DNA from: Acidobacteriota bacterium
Lineage (GTDB): Bacteria > Acidobacteriota > Holophagae > Holophagales > Holophagaceae
Reading direction: 5' to 3'
DNA length: 64,000 nucleotides
NCBI GenBank assembly: GCA_016195985.1
Contig: JACPYP010000011.1
Coordinates: forward strand, 558,001-622,000
Shown: piece by piece, positions 25,786 through 36,044 of the stretch
Layout of the letters: each line of letters starts with the position of its first letter
How positions within the stretch are numbered: the first letter of the stretch is position 1
Notes under the pieces: generated by a model
The model's database searches: none
Told to the model about the DNA's origin: nothing
Seen by the model: the letters and a program-made list of their open reading frames with translations, nothing else
Made by a program: the position numbers and the translations under genes

Positions 25786-28700
25786 TCACTGGCCGCCCCT
25801 CGCCAGGCGGGATTCATAGAGGCGTACCAGGAATTCCATGAGCACCCACTCGGTTTCCCGCTGGTCCCTCCTCAGCATCCGGTTGAGATGCATGTGAGCC
25901 AGACTTCCCGCCAAGCTGGGCCATGCCACGGAGAGACGCCCCTGATCGAAGGCAGCGCGGATCCGGGACAGGGCCGGGATATCAGGTGTCCCAGCCAGAA
26001 GGAGCGGTGCCAGCTCCCTCCGCAATGGCCGGAAGGTCCCGCCGATCTGCACGGCCCCCTCGCCGACATCTCCGAATTCTTTCCGGAAGGCTTCGCGGGA
26101 GGCATGGGCCAAGCCCTTGCGCGCCTCCAGATCCAGTCCCAGCGCCGCCCATATGGCGTCCACTTCCACCATGCCGGCCTTCCAGCGCTCCTCTTCAGAG
26201 ATGCCGGCCGCCAAGCGATCGAGCACCCGTTGACTGTCCTCATGGAACCAGGCCTCCGCCAGGGAGAATCCGAGTTCTCCGCCGTAGCGCTCCAGTTCAG
26301 GCATGAAGGTATCCACCTGCCATTTCCAGAGCGCCCCCTGGACGAGGCCTTGCTCCAGATGCCGGGCCACACGGGGCAGCAGCTCCATGACGAGGCGCCC
26401 GGGATGACCATGGAAACGCAGGCGGAGGTGGTGGCCCGGATCGCGGTAGCGGACGAAATGCCAGCGGTCCCACAGCCCCTCCTCACCCGTTGCGCGAAGG
26501 AGCGGCGCCAACTCTGTGAGGATCCGGTCCGCGCTGGCAGGGCCTGTGTAGATTTTGAGGTAGAGCCATTCTGAACCGGGGGCATGGGCCCGAATCGATG
26601 GCGGCGCGCTCAGCAGGGCGACTGGAGCCGCCTCGGGCGGTTCGGGCGCGATGGCCTCGAAGGGAATCACCAGCTCATGGGCGAAGCACCCTTCCGGCCC
26701 CGTGACCAGGGCCTGGCCCGGATCCGGAAAACATTCCGTCAGCGCGAAAGCCTGCCGGCCCGATACGAGGTGATGCAAGGCCTCCACCCAGAGGGCCTGG
26801 TCCAGGTCCACCAGGAGGCTGTTGTCCGCATCGGCCAGCATCACGAACCTGGGCAGGTTCCGCTGTTCCCGCAGCCGCTGGAAAGCGCCCCAGGCATCCT
26901 TGCCGGAGGCCGACGAAGCTCCCGCCAATTCCCCCATTTCGATCCGCCACCGGGCCTTGCAGAGCACCTGGCGCCCATGGGCCACCCGCGGCAGGAAGGG
27001 CTGCTCTTCCAGGGCGCCCCATGACCAGCCCCCCGGACGGCCGTCCTGATCCTGCAGATGGGCCAAAAACCGGTAGACCGCGGGCCCATGGGCGAAATTG
27101 TGGGCCGAGGACAGCCGCGGCACCACTTCGCGTCCCAGGCTCGCGGAGGCCAGGTGGATGCGGCCGCCTCTCACGGTCACATGCAGGTCCGAGGGCCGGA
27201 TGGTCTTGTCCGGCACCACGCCGGAGGCGGCGAGGAAGGGAATGTTGTAGTCCCGGAGCGAGGGCCGGGCGAGCACATTGCCCATGCGCCCTTCAGGCAC
27301 GTGCAGCACTTCGGCGAACACCGCCTCCGGGCGCGCGGCCTCTTCCTTCATCAGGTGCCGCCGGAGGGAATCCCTGAGATCCGCGTCCCCTGAGGCGAAG
27401 CGTCCCAACCACCGCGCGGCCGTGGGGCCTGAGTGGTGCTCCATCCAGAAGCGGAAATCGCCCCCATCCAAGGCCGCGGCGCTATCAGCGGCCAGCATCA
27501 CCAGGGCGGCGAAGGAATGAGGGAAAGGCCGGGGTTGGGGATGCGTCATGGCTGCGAGGTCCGCCTCATCCAGCTCCCAGACCGGAGCGCCCTGCCACTT
27601 CGAAACGCGTGCCAGCAGGGCCCGGTCCCGCTCTGTCAGCTGGCGCTGATCCGGGAGGCCGGCGAAAGCCAGGCCTTCGAGCAAAGGCGATTCTCTGGCC
27701 GCTCCGCCGTCGAATCCGATGCCGCTCTCCTCGTCCAGCACTTCCAGAAGCGGCATCCATCGAGCCTCATGGCGCTCCATGAAAGCGGCGCGGAAACGGT
27801 CGAGAGGCCCCTCCGGCGAGGCAGGCGTCAAGAGGCGGAGCGTCTCCGCGCCATCCTCCAAAGCCCGGCGAGCGCCTGCGGAGAGCGCCAGCTCTGGGCC
27901 CGGGCGGAAGAGATCCACCTGGAGGACATTCTGAGTGCCAGACGGAAATCCCGCGCCCGCCAGTGGGGGCAACAGCTCTAGGTACCCCTCCGGATGGGCC
28001 CCGAGCGGCGCGGCCTGAACCGCCTTCATGGCCCGGTCCAGATCCGCGAGGGCCTCAGCCCTTGACGCCGTGTCCGGGTGGGATCGAAGCGACGTGATCA
28101 CGCCATCCAACGGATCGGGATGAGTCAACGGCGGGGCCAGGTCCCCGCAAAGCAGCTGGGAATCGATCACCTGATCCAGGAAAGCCTCCGCTTCGGATGG
28201 CTCGACCCCTGCTTTTGCGGCCAGGCCCGAGCAAAGGACGTCGAAGGCCGCCCCCTGCTGCGACTGGCGAAGCACCCAATCGAGATGGGGCGTGGCTTCC
28301 ACCGCCTCCAGATGGTAGGTCCGCGCCTGGGTTCCAACCTGCCTGCGCCGCTCCATGTACCGGTACCAACCGCAGCGGGCATAGGCGCTGTCATTGGGCC
28401 GGTAGATCCGCGTGGTCCGGACCTGGGGCTCCCGCTCGAAGCGGTCCACCAGCTCTTCCAGCACGCCCCAATCCAGGCGCACCGCCTTGCGGCTGTCCCG
28501 CCAGGGACCCAGGGAAAGGTGGCTGGCCGCGCCCCATTTCCCCGTGGAAACGCCCGCGAAGAGGCCAAAGGGCGTCGATCGGCTGCTCATCCGGCTGAGA
28601 TACTTCAGCAGGGCGCGCTCCATGTTCTGGGCCGCAGCGGCGGCCAAGGAGCCTTCAAGCCAAGCGTCGATCCGCGCGGCCAGATCCGGCGAGGCCAGGG

Positions 28701-28896
28701 CCAAAGCTTCCCGCACCACCGCGTCCTGGACCAGGTCGCGCACGCGCTGCCGGGTGGCCTCCGGATCTCCCGGAGCTTCTGTCCCGGGGAGCGACGTATT
28801 TATCCGAGCACATCGTTGAAAGAGTGCGGCCTGCGGCAGGCCGGGGCTGCGGAGCACAAAAAAATCAGCGGTCTGACAGGTGGGCCGGCGGAACAT
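25786..28896 (-). CDS. lanB: class I lanthipeptide dehydratase (LanB), full length, orphan
   Basis: LanB enzymes dehydrate Ser and Thr of a ribosomal precursor peptide by glutamyl-tRNA-dependent glutamylation and elimination. This 1036-residue protein is full length. The glutamylation domain has the family block SSRSTPFGLFAGVS near residue 105, and the elimination (SpaB_C) domain begins at about residue 775 (EWLYLKIYTGPASADRILTE, then WHFVRYRDPGHHLRLRFHG). The ATG at 28896 (MFRRPTCQTADFFVLRSPG) gives the expected N-terminus; a TTG at 28938 is possible. No lanC, transporter or protease gene is visible on either side, so it is an orphan unless its precursor is one of the small ORFs noted nearby. 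A LytTR-type operator and a TATGCT -10 precede it. Confidence 0.93.
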   Translation of the reverse strand: MFRRPTCQTADFFVLRSPGLPQAALFQRCARINTSLPGTEAPGDPEATRQRVRDLVQDAVVREALALASPDLAARIDAWLEGSLAAAAAQNMERALLKYLSRMSSRSTPFGLFAGVSTGKWGAASHLSLGPWRDSRKAVRLDWGVLEELVDRFEREPQVRTTRIYRPNDSAYARCGWYRYMERRRQVGTQARTYHLEAVEATPHLDWVLRQSQQGAAFDVLCSGLAAKAGVEPSEAEAFLDQVIDSQLLCGDLAPPLTHPDPLDGVITSLRSHPDTASRAEALADLDRAMKAVQAAPLGAHPEGYLELLPPLAGAGFPSGTQNVLQVDLFRPGPELALSAGARRALEDGAETLRLLTPASPEGPLDRFRAAFMERHEARWMPLLEVLDEESGIGFDGGAARESPLLEGLAFAGLPDQRQLTERDRALLARVSKWQGAPVWELDEADLAAMTHPQPRPFPHSFAALVMLAADSAAALDGGDFRFWMEHHSGPTAARWLGRFASGDADLRDSLRRHLMKEEAARPEAVFAEVLHVPEGRMGNVLARPSLRDYNIPFLAASGVVPDKTIRPSDLHVTVRGGRIHLASASLGREVVPRLSSAHNFAHGPAVYRFLAHLQDQDGRPGGWSWGALEEQPFLPRVAHGRQVLCKARWRIEMGELAGASSASGKDAWGAFQRLREQRNLPRFVMLADADNSLLVDLDQALWVEALHHLVSGRQAFALTECFPDPGQALVTGPEGCFAHELVIPFEAIAPEPPEAAPVALLSAPPSIRAHAPGSEWLYLKIYTGPASADRILTELAPLLRATGEEGLWDRWHFVRYRDPGHHLRLRFHGHPGRLVMELLPRVARHLEQGLVQGALWKWQVDTFMPELERYGGELGFSLAEAWFHEDSQRVLDRLAAGISEEERWKAGMVEVDAIWAALGLDLEARKGLAHASREAFRKEFGDVGEGAVQIGGTFRPLRRELAPLLLAGTPDIPALSRIRAAFDQGRLSVAWPSLAGSLAHMHLNRMLRRDQRETEWVLMEFLVRLYESRLARGGQ

Positions 28897-28923: not shown

Positions 28924-28929
28924 AGCATA
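28924..28929 (-). promoter_or_regulatory. -10 element of the lanB promoter
   Basis: On the minus strand TATGCT lies about 28 bases upstream of the chosen lanB ATG, with no recognisable -35 at the expected distance. This fits an activator-dependent promoter served by the operator at 28972-29002. Confidence 0.4.
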
Positions 28930-28971
28930 ACAAACCAAACATTCCCCAGCCCTTGCGCCGCGCAGAAACCC

Positions 28972-29002
28972 CCGAACGGTATCAGAAATGGGGTTTAACG
29001 GT
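28972..29002 (-). promoter_or_regulatory. LytTR-type direct-repeat operator upstream of lanB
   Basis: Reading toward lanB, ACCGTTAAA and ACCGTTCGG are direct repeats whose starts are 22 bp apart (13-bp gap), the geometry of LytTR-domain sites. ACCGTTCGG fits the published consensus [TA][AC][CA]GTTN[AG][TG] fully; the distal site has one mismatch. The matching pair at 31116-31146 has exactly the same spacing. Confidence 0.7.
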
Positions 29003-29028
29003 TGAAGCTGTGTTTAGATACCGTTCAT
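28998..29028 (+). promoter_or_regulatory. weaker LytTR-type pair facing the LytS-type kinase gene
   Basis: ACGGTTGAA (two mismatches) and ACCGTTCAT (full consensus match) are direct repeats 22 bp apart on the plus strand. They overlap the lanB operator, so one protein could act on both divergent units. Confidence 0.45.
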
Positions 29029-29102
29029 GGAAAGAAGTTGGCTTTCAACCCGGCAGGCCTCAAAACCGGTGTCGCGCCTTGTGGCGCTACCTGGGAGCCC
29101 CC

Positions 29103-29258
29103 GTGAACAGCAGCCTCTCCTTCCGCAAAGAAGCCATTCAGCGTTCCAGCAGCGCAAGCGAAACCATGAACCGCGCGCTACAGGCCCAGAACGCCAGGGC
29201 CACCCATGAGCAGAGGCCCATCTCACTTACCATTACTGTCACGGCCACCATCCGCTGA
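29103..29258 (+). CDS. candidate 51-residue peptide with alternating Ser/Thr tail
   Basis: A GTG start preceded by GGGAG five bases upstream opens a 51-residue frame. The peptide has a Ser/Arg/Gln-rich front part and ends in ISLTITVTATIR, in which Ser or Thr occupies every second position. It has no cysteine, so it could not form lanthionine rings, but it lies between lanB and the kinase in the shared control region. It overlaps the annotated kinase start by 53 bases. Codon use is not distinctive. It may be chance. Confidence 0.25.
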   Translation: MNSSLSFRKEAIQRSSSASETMNRALQAQNARATHEQRPISLTITVTATIR

Positions 29259-30348
29259 GCGCCGATACCGGCTCCACGAATCTGGGGATTTCAGTGGCCT
29301 GGAATTGGTGAATCCTTGGACTTCTTGGTTCCCGCTGGTCAAAAACTGGCGATCCATAGGGGTTTGCTATGTCCTCTGGGTCCTTTCTGGCTTTTATGAA
29401 TATGGGATTGCCCATCGTCTGGGTAATGGGTGGACTTGGGCGATTATATTCACCTCTCCATTCACGCACATCAGTGCATTTGCCTTCTTCGCCCCTTTGC
29501 CATGGATTTTACCCCGTCGCCTCCGTTCACCTTGGAACATCATTATTGGATTTGTTATATCGGTGGTCGCTTGCGAAGCGGTCTCAGCGATTTTGCCTGC
29601 CATTGATGCTTGGCTTGCGGGACAGGTGGGTCTCCGGGTCAATCTGGGCAAACTTGTGGAGCTCTACATTGCTTACGCAGGTCCAACCATGATGCTGGTC
29701 GGCGGATTGGTCGCTTCCCGGGCTCATTCCGATGAGCTTCGGGAAGCGTCTGAAACGGAAGCCCAGATCGCCAAGAACCGGCTGCTCCAAAGCCAGATCC
29801 ACCCTCATGTGCTCTTCAACGCGCTCAACGGACTGGCGGAACTCGTCTACAAGAACCCCAAGGCCGCCGAGCGCGCCATCCGGCATCTCTCCGACCTGCT
29901 CAGGCGCATCATGCGGGCTTCGGAGCATATGCGGCTGCCTCTCGGGGAAGAACGGAAGATCATCTCCGATTTCCTGGCACTGGAGGCCATCCGGCTGGAG
30001 GGACGGCTCCGGGTGATCTGGGAGTGGGACGAGGGGCTGGATGCCATTGAGGTCCCCCCCCTTCTCCTGCAACCCCTCGTGGAGAACGCCATCAAGCATG
30101 GCATCGCGCCGAGCATCCCTGGCGGCGACCTGGTGCTCCGGGCCCGGGCCGAAGGTGGGGTGATCCTTCTGGAAGTGTGGAATTCCGGCGAACCGTACCA
30201 CGAAAACCAGCCATCGAGCGGCATCGGCGTGAAGAACCTGTGCCTGCGGCTGGCCCTGCATTTCGGCAGCGGGGCCTCTTTCTCGGTGGGCCCGCATGAG
30301 CATGGAACCCTCGCATCCATCCGGCTTGAGGCAATGCAAGTAGAATGA
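29206..30348 (+). CDS. LytS-type sensor histidine kinase
   Basis: The 380-residue protein has an N-terminal membrane part with about four hydrophobic segments (residues 45-185) and a C-terminal His_kinase/HATPase core of the LytS class. The phosphoacceptor block is KNRLLQSQIHPHVLFNALNG, and the N-box is LLLQPLVENAIKHGIAP, with GIGVKNLCLRL as the G-box. The start is uncertain: ATG 29206 lacks a strong ribosome site and a GTG at 29308 would still include all membrane segments. The membrane part is AT-richer than neighbours. It is four bases upstream of a LytTR regulator, its likely partner. Confidence 0.87.
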   Translation: MSRGPSHLPLLSRPPSAERRYRLHESGDFSGLELVNPWTSWFPLVKNWRSIGVCYVLWVLSGFYEYGIAHRLGNGWTWAIIFTSPFTHISAFAFFAPLPWILPRRLRSPWNIIIGFVISVVACEAVSAILPAIDAWLAGQVGLRVNLGKLVELYIAYAGPTMMLVGGLVASRAHSDELREASETEAQIAKNRLLQSQIHPHVLFNALNGLAELVYKNPKAAERAIRHLSDLLRRIMRASEHMRLPLGEERKIISDFLALEAIRLEGRLRVIWEWDEGLDAIEVPPLLLQPLVENAIKHGIAPSIPGGDLVLRARAEGGVILLEVWNSGEPYHENQPSSGIGVKNLCLRLALHFGSGASFSVGPHEHGTLASIRLEAMQVE

Positions 30349-30352
30349 GGCT

Positions 30353-31099
30353 ATGAAAGTCCTCAAAGCCCTGGTGGTAGACGACGAACCCCTCGCACGG
30401 GAACGGCTGTCGCGGTTGCTCCAGGAGGCTGGCTGCGAAGTGGTCGGCGAACTCGGAGATGGGCTGTCCCTTCTGCAATGGCTGAGGGAGCCTCATGAGG
30501 TGGATGTCATTTTCCTGGATATCCAGATGCCAGGGCCCAATGGCATGGAAATCCTGGCAGAGGTGCCGGAATGCCCGCCGGTGGTATTCGTCACGGCCCA
30601 CGCCACCTATGCCGTGCGGGCCTTTGAACTCGCCGCGGTGGACTACCTGCTCAAGCCCGTATTTGACGACCGCCTGGCCAAATGCCTGCAGCGCCTACAG
30701 CAGCAGCTGGTCCGCAGGCTCAGCCCCACGGAGCTGAAAGCGCTCCTGCCGCCGCCGGCGCGCTTCCCCATTCGCGCCGGGGATGGAGAGATCTTCATGG
30801 AGCTGGAACTCATCACGCACTTCGAGCTGCAGAACGAGCGCGTGTGGGCCTGCCGGGGCCTGAACCGCTATGTCACCCGCTGGAACTCGCTGGCGGAGGT
30901 CGAACAGGCCTTTCCCGAAGACGGCATGATCCGGATCCAGCGCCACCTCCTGCTCAGGCCCCAGATGGTCAAGGGGATCCGCCCCACCAGCGTGGGACGG
31001 ATCAAAGTCATGATCGCCCCCAAGGTGGAACTGACCGTCAGCCGCGCCATGACTCCCCGGACCAGGGACTGCCTCCGGGCCCACAGCATCCCCATCTGA
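30353..31099 (+). CDS. LytTR-family response regulator
   Basis: The 248-residue protein has a receiver domain (residues 4-120: ALVVDDEPLARERLSRLLQE, phosphoacceptor Asp in VIFLDIQMPGPNGMEIL, VFVTAHATYAV, and the lysine in YLLKPV). It is followed by a C-terminal LytTR DNA-binding domain (IFMELELITHFELQNERVWA, LNRYVTRWNSLAEVEQAFP, MIRIQRHLLLRPQMVKGIRP). LytTR domains bind 9-mer direct repeats, and such repeats occur both before lanB and right after this gene. It follows the kinase by four bases, forming a two-component operon. Confidence 0.93.
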   Translation: MKVLKALVVDDEPLARERLSRLLQEAGCEVVGELGDGLSLLQWLREPHEVDVIFLDIQMPGPNGMEILAEVPECPPVVFVTAHATYAVRAFELAAVDYLLKPVFDDRLAKCLQRLQQQLVRRLSPTELKALLPPPARFPIRAGDGEIFMELELITHFELQNERVWACRGLNRYVTRWNSLAEVEQAFPEDGMIRIQRHLLLRPQMVKGIRPTSVGRIKVMIAPKVELTVSRAMTPRTRDCLRAHSIPI

Positions 31100-31115
31100 G
31101 TTCAAGGCACCTTTA

Positions 31116-31146
31116 ACCGTTCGGGGGTGGAAATACCACCGTTCGG
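31116..31146 (+). promoter_or_regulatory. perfect LytTR-type direct-repeat operator
   Basis: ACCGTTCGG occurs twice, starts 22 bp apart with a 13-bp gap. Both copies fit the LytTR consensus and equal one half-site of the lanB operator. It lies 17 bp after the LytTR regulator stop and upstream of the PAS-kinase unit. Confidence 0.75.
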
Positions 31147-31178: not shown

Positions 31179-31184
31179 TATGAT
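31179..31184 (+). promoter_or_regulatory. -10 element downstream of the perfect operator
   Basis: TATGAT lies 32 bases after the operator; at lanB the gap is 42 bases, a difference of about one helical turn. A good -35 at 17 bases is absent, as expected for an activated promoter. Confidence 0.4.
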
Positions 31185-31242
31185 CCCTTGGTCTGGCCCC
31201 ATGCCAGTCCATCCGCGGAATGCCGGGATCCAGGAGCCTTTG

Positions 31243-31380
31243 ATGGAATCGTTTACATTCATCAGCTGTCCGGACATCGGGTCTTTGCTTTCTGCGGCCG
31301 GCCGGGATGCCTCTCTGGGTCTGCAAGGCCTGTCCACTCTCTGCGCCAGGAGGCTGAAACCATGGGATCCCACTGCATGA
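31243..31380 (+). CDS. candidate 45-residue leader peptide ORF
   Basis: ATG at 31243 has AGGAG six bases upstream and opens a 45-residue frame in the leader of the PAS-kinase transcript. The peptide is Ser/Thr-rich and has two cysteines (FISCPDIG and LSTLCARR), features a LanB substrate would need, but it lacks a recognisable class I leader. The DNA just upstream (31201-31232) looks like a decayed 'CCGCGGAATGCCGGGATCC' repeat. It overlaps the kinase start by 19 bases. Treat as unproven. Confidence 0.2.
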   Translation: MESFTFISCPDIGSLLSAAGRDASLGLQGLSTLCARRLKPWDPTA

Positions 31381-32516
31381 GCGTCGCCAGGCTGCCCCAG
31401 CCTCTTCAATCGGAACGGTGGCTCGCGGTCGCCCTGGACCAGGCCCTGGAGGCCATCGCCCTCCTGGACGTGGAAGATGGGGCCATCCTCTACTCCAACG
31501 CCGCCTTTACCCAAACCTTTGGCGGTCTGGCCCAGATGGCCCCAGGACAACGGCTGGTGGATTTGTTCAGGCCCGACGGAGAAGGCCGGGTCCTGTCCGC
31601 GGCCCTTCAGCAGGCCCGCTCAGGCCAGGCATGGATGGGGTGCATCCTCCTCATGACCGCCAGTGGCCAACCAGTCCGCTTCGAACTGGCCATCTCCCCT
31701 GTCCGCGATGACGACGGCCTCATCCAATCGCTGGTGGTGAGGCTCCGGGACATCACGTCGGATGTCGAGAGGGACCGCAACCTCCGCCTGGCCCAAAAAA
31801 TGAACAGCCTTGGCGCCCTGGCCGGAGGCGTGGCGCACGATTTCAACAACCTGATCGGCGCCATCCTCATCACGGCCGAACAGATCGAGATGCAGGTCGA
31901 ACCTGACAGTCCCGTGAGGCGGAAACTGGAGATCATCCAGCGGATCGGCGACCGGGCGAAGGGGCTGACCTCGCAGATCCTGAATTTCAGCCGCCGTTCC
32001 GAGGGCAAGTGGTCCCTCATCGACTTCTCCGATCTGATCATCGAAGTGACCAGCGTTCTCAAGACCACTTTCCCTGAAAACGTGAAAATCCGGACGGACC
32101 TGACCAAGGGAATCAAGATCTACGGCGATCCTTCGCAGCTGCACCAGGTGATCATGAACCTCGGCATCAACGCCAGCCAGGCCATGCAACCCGGGGGAGG
32201 AACACTCTCCATCCACCTCCAGCCGGCGGCCCACGATCACGGCGGCACCTTGCGAGGCTCCGTGGAACCCTGCGTCCTGCTCACGGTGGAGGATTCCGGT
32301 TGCGGCATGGACTCCCACACCCTGGAACGGATCTTCGAGCCCTTCTTCACCACCAAAAATGCAGGCCATGGCACGGGGCTGGGCCTGTCGGTGGTTTACG
32401 ACATCGTCCACGGGCATGGAGGCAGTCTCCAGGTCTCAAGCAAACCGGGACAGGGGAGCTCCTTCCAGATCCTGCTTCCTCTGAATCACGGCAAGGTCAA
32501 GGTGTGGGCGAGTTGA
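31362..32516 (+). CDS. PAS-domain sensor histidine kinase
   Basis: The 384-residue cytoplasmic kinase has a PAS domain (residues 25-130, with ILYSNAAFTQTFGG), a HisKA domain with the phosphoacceptor in LGALAGGVAHDFNNLIG near residue 150, and an HATPase domain (QVIMNLGINASQAM, DSGCGMD, FEPFFTTK, GTGLGLSVVYDIVHGHGG). No receiver domain is fused and no regulator is adjacent downstream. AGGAGG is eight bases before the ATG at 31362. It is the first sizable gene after the perfect LytTR operator, so the upstream two-component system probably controls it. Confidence 0.9.
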   Translation: MGSHCMSVARLPQPLQSERWLAVALDQALEAIALLDVEDGAILYSNAAFTQTFGGLAQMAPGQRLVDLFRPDGEGRVLSAALQQARSGQAWMGCILLMTASGQPVRFELAISPVRDDDGLIQSLVVRLRDITSDVERDRNLRLAQKMNSLGALAGGVAHDFNNLIGAILITAEQIEMQVEPDSPVRRKLEIIQRIGDRAKGLTSQILNFSRRSEGKWSLIDFSDLIIEVTSVLKTTFPENVKIRTDLTKGIKIYGDPSQLHQVIMNLGINASQAMQPGGGTLSIHLQPAAHDHGGTLRGSVEPCVLLTVEDSGCGMDSHTLERIFEPFFTTKNAGHGTGLGLSVVYDIVHGHGGSLQVSSKPGQGSSFQILLPLNHGKVKVWAS

Positions 32517-34479: not shown

Positions 34480-34537
34480 TTGGGCTGTCACACGCTGAAG
34501 GTACGAATGAAACGAGTCGAACGCCCCTCGGACCTTC

Positions 34538-34753
34538 AGCGCTCGCGTCCCTGGCCCTGACCCACTCCTGCCTGATAGCCGCCCCATCGTCGCTCCCATG
34601 TGACGCTGACTTAGCAGCGCCACATGGGGCTCCGCGCGGCGCTTTAGCGCTCGCGTCCGGCTCCCTGACCCACTCCTGCCTGATAGCCGCCCCATCGTCG
34701 CTCCCATGTGACGCTGCCTTAGCAGCGCCACATGGGGCTCCGCGCGGCGCTTT
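34538..34753. repeat. 108-bp tandem duplication with internal hairpins
   Basis: Two almost identical 108-bp units (about 34538-34645 and 34646-34753). Each contains a hairpin in which CCCATGTG pairs with CACATGGG and CGCTG with CAGCG (34595-34628 and 34703-34736). The right unit reaches the last codon of rho. The left end of the first unit is diverged. This could be a REP-like element that also serves as the rho terminator. Confidence 0.8.
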
Positions 34754-36044
34754 AGCGCCGCGGGGGCGGCTCCTGCAGGTTGGCTAGGAATTCGTCGTTG
34801 GTTTTGGCTTTGCCGAGGCGGTCCACGAGCAGTTCCATGCTTTCGCTGGGGCCGCTGGCGGTGAGGATCTTGCGCAGCACCCAGATCTTGGCGAGCTTGG
34901 CAGGTTCGATGAGCAGGTCTTCCTTGCGGGTGCCGGATTTCTGGATGTCCATGGCCGGGAAGATGCGCTTGTCACTGAGCTTGCGATCCAGCACGATCTC
35001 GCTGTTGCCGGTGCCCTTGAACTCCTCGAAGATCACGTCATCCATGCGGCTGCCGGTTTCGATGAGGGCGGTGGCGATGATGGTGAGGCTACCGCCCGCT
35101 TCGATGTTGCGCGCGGCGCCGAAGAAACGCTTCGGCCTTTGCAGCGCATTGGAATCGACGCCGCCGGACAGCACCTTGCCGCTGGGCGGAACCACGGTGT
35201 TGTAGGCGCGCCCCAGCCGGGTGATGGAATCCAGGAGGATCACCACGTCCTTCTTGTGCTCCACCAGCCTCTTGGCCTTTTCGATGACCATCTCGGCCAC
35301 CTGGACGTGCCGGGTGGCGGGCTCGTCGAAGGTGCTCGACACCACTTCGCCCTTCACGCTGCGTTCCATATCCGTGACTTCTTCAGGGCGCTCGTCGATC
35401 AGCAACACGATGAGGAAGACTTCCGGATGGTTGGCCGTGATGGAGTTCGCGATGTTCTGCAGGAGCACAGTCTTGCCGGTGCGAGGCGGCGCCACGATGA
35501 GGGCGCGCTGCCCCTTGCCCAGCGGCGTCATCAGGTCCATGACGCGGGTGCTCAGCTCCTGAGTGTCCCGCTCCATGCGCAGGTGGTGCTTGGGATACAG
35601 GGGCACCAAATCGTCGAAGTGGGCGCGCTCCTTGGCCGTGGCGGGCGGATCGAAATTCACGGCGTCCACCCGCAGCATGGCGAAGAAATTCTCGTTTCCC
35701 TTGGGGGCCCGGATCATGCCGGAGAGCGTGTCGCCGGTGCGCAGGTTGAACTTGCGGATCTGGCTCGGCGAAATGTAGATGTCTTCGGGTCCCGCGAGGT
35801 AGTTCTGGTCGGGGCTCCGCAGAAAGCCGAAGCCTTCCGGAAGCACTTCCAGCACGCCTTCAGAGAAGAATTGTCCTTCGCGCTCTGCCTGTGCCTGCAG
35901 CACTCTGAAGGTCAGCTCCTGTTTCCGCATGCCGAGCGGATTCTCTATCGCGAGTTCCTTCGCCAATTCGGCGAGCCTCCCAATAGAGAATTCCTTGAGC
36001 TCTTGCAAGCTCAAAACGGTCTGAGACTGAGAAGGGGTGGCCAT
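34752..36044 (-). CDS. rho: transcription termination factor Rho
   Basis: Rho is the hexameric RNA helicase that ends transcription. The 430-residue protein has an N-terminal helical part and a cold-shock RNA-binding domain ([20 protein letters not shown]). The RecA core follows with Walker [25 protein letters not shown], the Q-loop [14 protein letters not shown], and the R-loop. The ATG at 36044 gives the usual family start. The final residues EPPPRR coincide with the start of a tandem DNA repeat, so the C-terminus may have been reshaped by it. Confidence 0.97.

Follow-up and report, generated by a model that had tools for sequence, protein, structure and literature searches.

Genes and repeats at the locus

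The window, a 64-kb stretch of DNA from an Acidobacteriota bacterium, carries a divergent locus in which a class I lanthipeptide dehydratase gene (lanB) stands on one side of an intergenic region and a LytS-type kinase, a LytTR regulator and a PAS-domain kinase follow on the other. Its features are as follows.

25786-28896, minus strand: lanB, encoding a full-length class I lanthipeptide dehydratase that has both the glutamylation and the elimination domain
28924-28929, minus strand: -10-like TATGCT, putative lanB promoter, read directly from the window sequence
28972-29002, minus strand: predicted lanB-facing LytTR operator, two ACCGTTNNN copies 22 bp apart, kept before lanB in relatives
28997-29003, no strand assigned: central half-site AACGGTT, common to both divergent operators, invariant in an alignment of the lanB-kinase intergenic region from ~23 genomes
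28998-29028, plus strand: predicted kinase/peptide-facing LytTR operator, ACGGTT-N16-ACCGTT, conserved together with its spacer
29069-29094, plus strand: conserved hairpin of the type AGGTYGCGCC..GGCGCYACCT that has one fixed internal mismatch; the ribosome-binding site TGGGAG follows directly
29103-29258, plus strand: candidate precursor peptide gene MNSSLSFRKEAIQRSSSASETMNRALQAQNARATHEQRPISLTITVTATIR, GTG start
29206-30348, plus strand: LytS-type sensor kinase (His_kinase PF06580, E=4.4e-18) with four N-terminal hydrophobic segments
30353-31099, plus strand: LytTR response regulator, receiver plus LytTR domain (Response_reg 1.9e-24, LytTR 5.8e-7)
31116-31146, plus strand: predicted PAS-kinase-facing LytTR operator, a perfect 9-bp direct repeat
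31179-31184, plus strand: -10-like TATGAT, putative PAS-kinase promoter, read directly from the window sequence
31362-32516, plus strand: PAS-domain histidine kinase (PAS, HisKA, HATPase_c), facultative locus member, reading frame open from TTG 31188

LanB contains both class I domains (Pfam Lant_dehydr_N, E=1.4e-154; Lant_dehydr_C, E=8.9e-54), and its best PDB matches are 5EHK, 9G04 and NisB (4WD9). Residues R784, R786, E823 and R826 of NisB, which act in glutamate elimination, align with identical residues in LanB. Translation of lanB likely begins at the ATG at 28896, the frame being open from a TTG at 28938. Across the intergenic region, the PF06580 kinase and the adjacent receiver-LytTR regulator have the composition of a LytS/LytTR two-component system, and the true kinase start probably lies downstream of the peptide stop.

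The lanB-facing pair of repeats consists of ACCGTTCGG (28972-28980) and ACCGTTAAA (28994-29002) on the minus strand, both with exact hexamers, while the PAS-kinase pair repeats ACCGTTCGG at 31116-31124 and 31138-31146 on the plus strand with a 13-bp gap. A sequence-only reading of this DNA had described these direct repeats, with starts 22 bp apart and 13-bp gaps, at two places, and had put TATGCT and TATGAT 42 and 32 bases beyond the operators; on re-reading, all coordinates proved correct, as did the distances, counted from the 9-mers. The kinase-facing pair, ACGGTTGAA (28998-29006) and ACCGTTCAT (29020-29028) on the plus strand, had been called weaker, which holds for its hexamers, with one mismatch, but this is the most conserved of the three operators, spacer included.

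Canonical LytTR operators are paired direct repeats with gaps of 10-13 bp (PMC4847170, PMC11347149), and for most LytTR activators the operator lies upstream of the promoter (PMC11347149). The window sites have this form, with two direct repeats of ~9 bp and a gap in that range, and they lie upstream of the -10-like elements, in the position given for most LytTR activators. These features support the view that the repeats are LytTR-type operators, and their architecture suggests binding by the regulator encoded in the window.

Conservation of the operators and their promoters

Both divergent operators are kept in ~25 Geothrix and Holophagaceae genomes, and lanB adjoins the operator in ~25 genomes. 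The TATGCT before lanB is retained in the closest relatives at 45-54 nt beyond the operator. Distances from operator to -10 element cluster near 35-36, 45 and 52-54 nt, which fits helical phasing of an activator placed upstream of its promoter. As a separate observation, sites whose spacer starts with CGC (or similar) have a common downstream YTGYCATCGTC ~30 nt beyond the operator (loci L009, L016, L033, L045, L130 and L131), unlike the TATGCT/TATGAT sites; this is possibly a second promoter type.

The PAS-kinase operator is exact in the related genomes G030, G029 and G024, has one mismatch in G031 and two in G033, and the PAS-kinase orthologues behind the equivalent operator are 60-80% identical. 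TATGAT occurs at equal distance in G030 (L125) and at another site in G029 (L134). Since the PAS kinase is kept in these five relatives whereas several other genomes showed none next to the regulator, we regard it as a facultative member. The proposal that the operators link the two-component system, lanB and the PAS kinase is thus borne out by conservation of the linkage, but the PAS kinase belongs to it only facultatively. A second short ORF past the PAS-kinase operator (~31208-31380, in another frame than the kinase), a possible precursor, had no Pfam match.

A candidate precursor peptide gene beside lanB

LanB had been considered an orphan enzyme. We found, between the operators and the kinase, a conserved small gene that the earlier reading had overlooked and that very likely encodes the precursor for the window LanB. 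The peptide is 48-55 residues long, with the leader LSFRKESIQRSS and a variable, Thr-rich, Cys-free core. In all 22 loci extracted, the ORF starts exactly 78 nt beyond the kinase-facing operator, the hairpin leader region being a constant 78 nt; the sequence of the hairpin hardly varies, and no covariation support for it was obtained. Leader residues L5, F7, K9, E10, I12, Q13, S16 and S19 are invariant, whereas the C-terminal 8-11 residues vary and are always Thr/Ser-rich, alternating with hydrophobic residues. None of the 22 cores contains the Cys that, together with Ser/Thr in the core, a lanthionine would take. In the leader, pS is 0.49 and pN is 0.13 per site, and the signal is gone in the other two frames; by this measure the leader is under purifying selection.

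A profile search of the 47 congeneric genomes detected the peptide in 25 (with two further near-threshold matches), and five genomes from two sister genera have it too, always beside lanB. It is single-copy save for one genome with two complete loci. Named carriers include Geothrix fermentans, limicola, oryzisoli, paludis, terrae, campi and fuzhouensis. Every one of the 25 peptide-bearing genomes has a lanB match. Two genomes have lanB only: in G026 the match lies at a contig end, and in G028 it is a distant partial match of 38%. Two others, G007 and G008, have neither peptide nor lanB, and in both of them the kinase, the regulator and the kinase-facing operator remain. Pfam and NCBIfam hold no family matching the peptide. 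An encoded precursor, a conserved leader with a variable core and an adjacent modifying enzyme, as expected of a RiPP locus, are all present. No LanC-like protein was recognised among the ORFs around lanB in a Pfam search and on reading the neighbours by eye.

Paired repeats across the host genome and the genus

Counted within the window alone and allowing at most two mismatches, there are 5 pairs against 1.73 expected. Because this excess within 64 kb is mild, testing was extended to the whole genome. The genome-wide motif scan that the sequence-only reading had proposed found exact ACCGTT-N16-ACCGTT 10 times in the host genome (4.26 Mb), compared with 0 occurrences of a reversed-pattern control, and the motif recurs across the genus, with sites in 29 of 47 congeneric genomes and the reversed control almost empty.

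Spacing was examined by varying the gap over 31 lengths (starts 12 to 42 bp apart) in eight genomes, which yielded 70 pairs. Of these, 53 are spaced 21 or 22 bp (37 at 22 bp and 16 at 21 bp), and any other spacing has at most three; 21 bp is therefore a second allowed geometry. With both spacings counted, exact sites in the host genome number at least 14 (10 at 22 bp and 4 at 21 bp), so the regulon is not the small, local one first envisaged. Nearly all sampled sites lie directly upstream of genes and, given also the spacing preference, equally good pairs are not scattered at random.

Which LytTR protein reads the sites

The window encodes one LytTR regulator (30353-31099), as had been noted, but the genome encodes 14 LytTR proteins, and being the only one in the window is therefore weak evidence by itself. 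A comparison across genomes is more informative. An orthologue of the window regulator, at 72-93% identity, is present in 28 of the 47 genomes, host included. These 28 genomes contain 60 exact 22-bp sites, compared with 7 in the 19 genomes that lack the orthologue (Mann-Whitney p ~8e-5 for site number against orthologue presence, with an unrelated element still included and with genomes that are related, so that events are not independent). Five of the 7 sites in orthologue-free genomes are one conserved element without the extended motif. The orthologue-free genomes do encode other LytTR proteins. Since site abundance tracks the orthologue notwithstanding these other proteins, the distribution suggests that the sites are read mainly by the window regulator.

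Some sites may belong to LytTR paralogues, given the 14 in the genome and a related ACCGTT direct repeat (the CAGGATCCCTGGTGA family), apparently of other LytTR systems, that is seen both with and without the orthologue. The single element behind five of the 7 sites in orthologue-free genomes, ATATCCTWCCGKGATC upstream of a substrate-binding-protein gene, was set aside as not part of the regulon. At L037, L048, L049, L050 and L054 (~position 1500), ACCGTTATATCCTWCCGKGATCACCGTT occurs in five genomes, mostly directly upstream of a tungstate/molybdate-type substrate-binding-protein gene, and resembles the site of another regulator. A 21-bp-spaced ACCGTT pair with the spacer CAGGAYCCCTGGTGA was seen at L183, L184, L190, L193 and L196 (~position 1500), upstream of conserved membrane-protein genes, also where the window regulator is absent; it is probably the operator of a different LytTR system.

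Genes behind the other sites

Downstream of the remaining sites lie mainly secreted or surface proteins, as judged by signal-peptide-like N-termini. Several of the downstream genes have low GC3 and were therefore probably acquired. Recognisable targets in the host are an S9 peptidase, a YcxB-like protein and a 4-fold beta flower protein; in relatives they are a RelA/SpoT-domain protein, a DUF4062 protein and a second PAS kinase. The RelA/SpoT-domain protein (L034:34-1305, minus strand, in G009) lies behind a regulon operator and matches the PADLOC candidate PDC-S33. Among ten targets tested against defence-system models, one had a match. Most of the tested targets had no match in Pfam, and the idea that the regulon forms one functional pathway was dropped on that account.

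A model of the circuit

We propose a LytTR-activated RiPP circuit with a regulon of accessory and secreted proteins as the best model, and give it a probability of about 0.68. In this model, the regulator (30353-31099) would bind direct repeats of ACCGTT(C[GA][CG]) spaced 21-22 bp apart upstream of Geothrix promoters. Three half-sites in the lanB-kinase intergenic region would form two back-to-back operators with the centre in common, from which the regulator would activate lanB to one side. To the other side it would activate an operon that encodes the precursor peptide, the membrane kinase and the regulator itself, giving positive autoregulation. LanB would recognise the conserved leader (LSFRKESIQRSS) and, using glutamyl-tRNA, dehydrate the Thr/Ser-rich, Cys-free core. 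The predicted product is a linear, dehydrobutyrine-rich peptide, because the core has no Cys and the locus no LanC. Further targets of the same regulator would be the neighbouring PAS kinase and about a dozen unlinked genes, most of them accessory, whose products are secreted, surface or effector-like proteins. Counting against the model, the window locus encodes neither a leader protease nor an exporter. The sequences themselves show the operators and their conservation, the co-occurrence of sites with the regulator and of the peptide with lanB, and the precursor ORF with the selection on it. Binding by the window regulator, activation, dehydration and the identity of the kinase signal are all inferred, and activation as the direction of control would follow from the architecture of the sites. 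For the reasons that predict a linear product, lanthionine rings are not expected, and the locus is better kept apart from lanthipeptide systems even though it would use a lanthipeptide dehydratase.

Alternative explanations

Several alternatives have to be set against this model, some concerning the sites and others the peptide. That the repeats arose by chance in a GC-rich genome would agree with the modest excess in the window taken alone, yet the count of 10 against 0 genome-wide, the spacing preference and the conservation across genomes leave practically no weight to it, and a chance origin was rejected on the genome and genus scans and the spacing distribution. A subtler possibility is that the sites are real LytTR operators read chiefly by paralogues, or by several LytTR proteins jointly, with the window regulator as one user. 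Several of the 14 LytTR proteins in the genome are 46-58% identical to the window regulator, and a similar ACCGTT direct repeat stands before genes of another system in orthologue-free genomes. We nevertheless consider this unlikely, given that genomes with other LytTR proteins but without the orthologue have almost no sites.

For the peptide, the small ORF could instead serve the kinase operon as an attenuator or a regulatory leader peptide, with LanB acting on some other peptide. In favour of this, the leader region of that operon contains a conserved hairpin, which the small ORF follows, and the small ORF overlaps the kinase ORF as this would be annotated. However, selection acts at the amino-acid level, the ORF disappears together with lanB in G007 and G008 while the kinase operon stays, and the leader/core layout and the Thr/Ser-rich core are those of a precursor, which makes an attenuator improbable. 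Harder to dismiss, but still doubtful in our estimation, is an auto-inducing pheromone: the LanB-modified peptide would leave the cell by export and be detected by the four-TM LytS-type kinase, with the LytTR regulator then amplifying lanB, the precursor, the kinase and the regulon, in the manner of an agr- or nisin-like quorum loop working with a dehydrated peptide, a likeness to which we attach the same doubt. Peptide, kinase and regulator share one operon, the modification enzyme uses the same operator, the core varies between species behind a fixed leader as in pheromone systems, and secreted and accessory proteins are overrepresented in the regulon. On the other hand, G007 and G008 keep the kinase and the regulator (63 and 73-74% identity) as well as the kinase-facing operator without lanB or peptide, and the locus has neither an exporter nor a GG-type cleavage site. 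In addition, PMC10653868 describes a small molecule, pyruvate, as the ligand sensed by a LytS-type kinase. The boldest form of the proposal, in which a Cys-free, LanB-dehydrated linear peptide is the autoinducer of a LytS/LytTR pair that controls its own synthesis, the PAS kinase and horizontally acquired surface and defence-like genes, would amount to new peptide signalling in Acidobacteriota, and seems to us slightly less probable again.

Relation to known systems

With LytS/LytTR systems of the AlgR, AgrA, VirR and BtsR/YpdB type, among the closest known systems, the proposed circuit shares the receiver-LytTR regulator and the PF06580 kinase, and with their operators the 9-bp direct-repeat pair, the 12-13-bp gap and the place upstream of the promoter (PMC4847170, PMC11347149). 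It differs from them in occurring in Acidobacteriota (Geothrix), in the half-site common to two divergent operators and in the RiPP precursor within the operon. The agr system (AgrD, AgrB, AgrC and the LytTR protein AgrA) likewise combines a precursor peptide, a modifying enzyme, a membrane kinase and LytTR autoregulation; here, however, the enzyme is LanB and not AgrB, the kinase is of the LytS type, and the putative ligand role of the peptide is partly contradicted by G007 and G008. Class I lanthipeptide loci (nisin with NisB/NisRK; MibB) resemble ours in the two-domain LanB, the leader/core precursor and the linked two-component system, and two-component control of class I lantibiotics is already known. 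In contrast to these loci, ours has no LanC, LanT or LanP, the core is Cys-free, the regulator is of the LytTR and not the OmpR type, and the precursor family is absent from Pfam and NCBIfam. The open-access literature searched contained no description of the locus, nor of a genus-wide regulon in Acidobacteriota in which LytTR autoregulation is combined with a LanB that lacks a LanC and with a Thr-rich precursor free of Cys.

A full-length "orphan" LanB thereby gains a concrete candidate substrate, a small unannotated peptide family of Geothrix and two sister genera. The model predicts a RiPP made only of dehydrated residues, and it defines a LytTR regulon testable in the cultured species Geothrix fermentans, G. 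limicola and G. oryzisoli. If the peptide were indeed a signal, the circuit would be a peptide quorum system in Acidobacteriota, where we know of none that has been established.

Two further observations concern the host genome. A second LanB cluster (G000:C18:127000-145000, L117), also found in G030 (L118), encodes a LanB2 47% identical to the window LanB, with a divergent LytS-type kinase and a LytTR paralogue; a precursor was not identified there. Unlike the window locus, this cluster includes an HlyD protein, a C39-peptidase ABC exporter and a second ABC protein, and the region upstream of lanB2 reads as a candidate LanC. Within the window, a 108-bp tandem repeat (34534-34762; 2.1 copies, 94% matches) lies downstream of a prepilin-peptidase-like gene.
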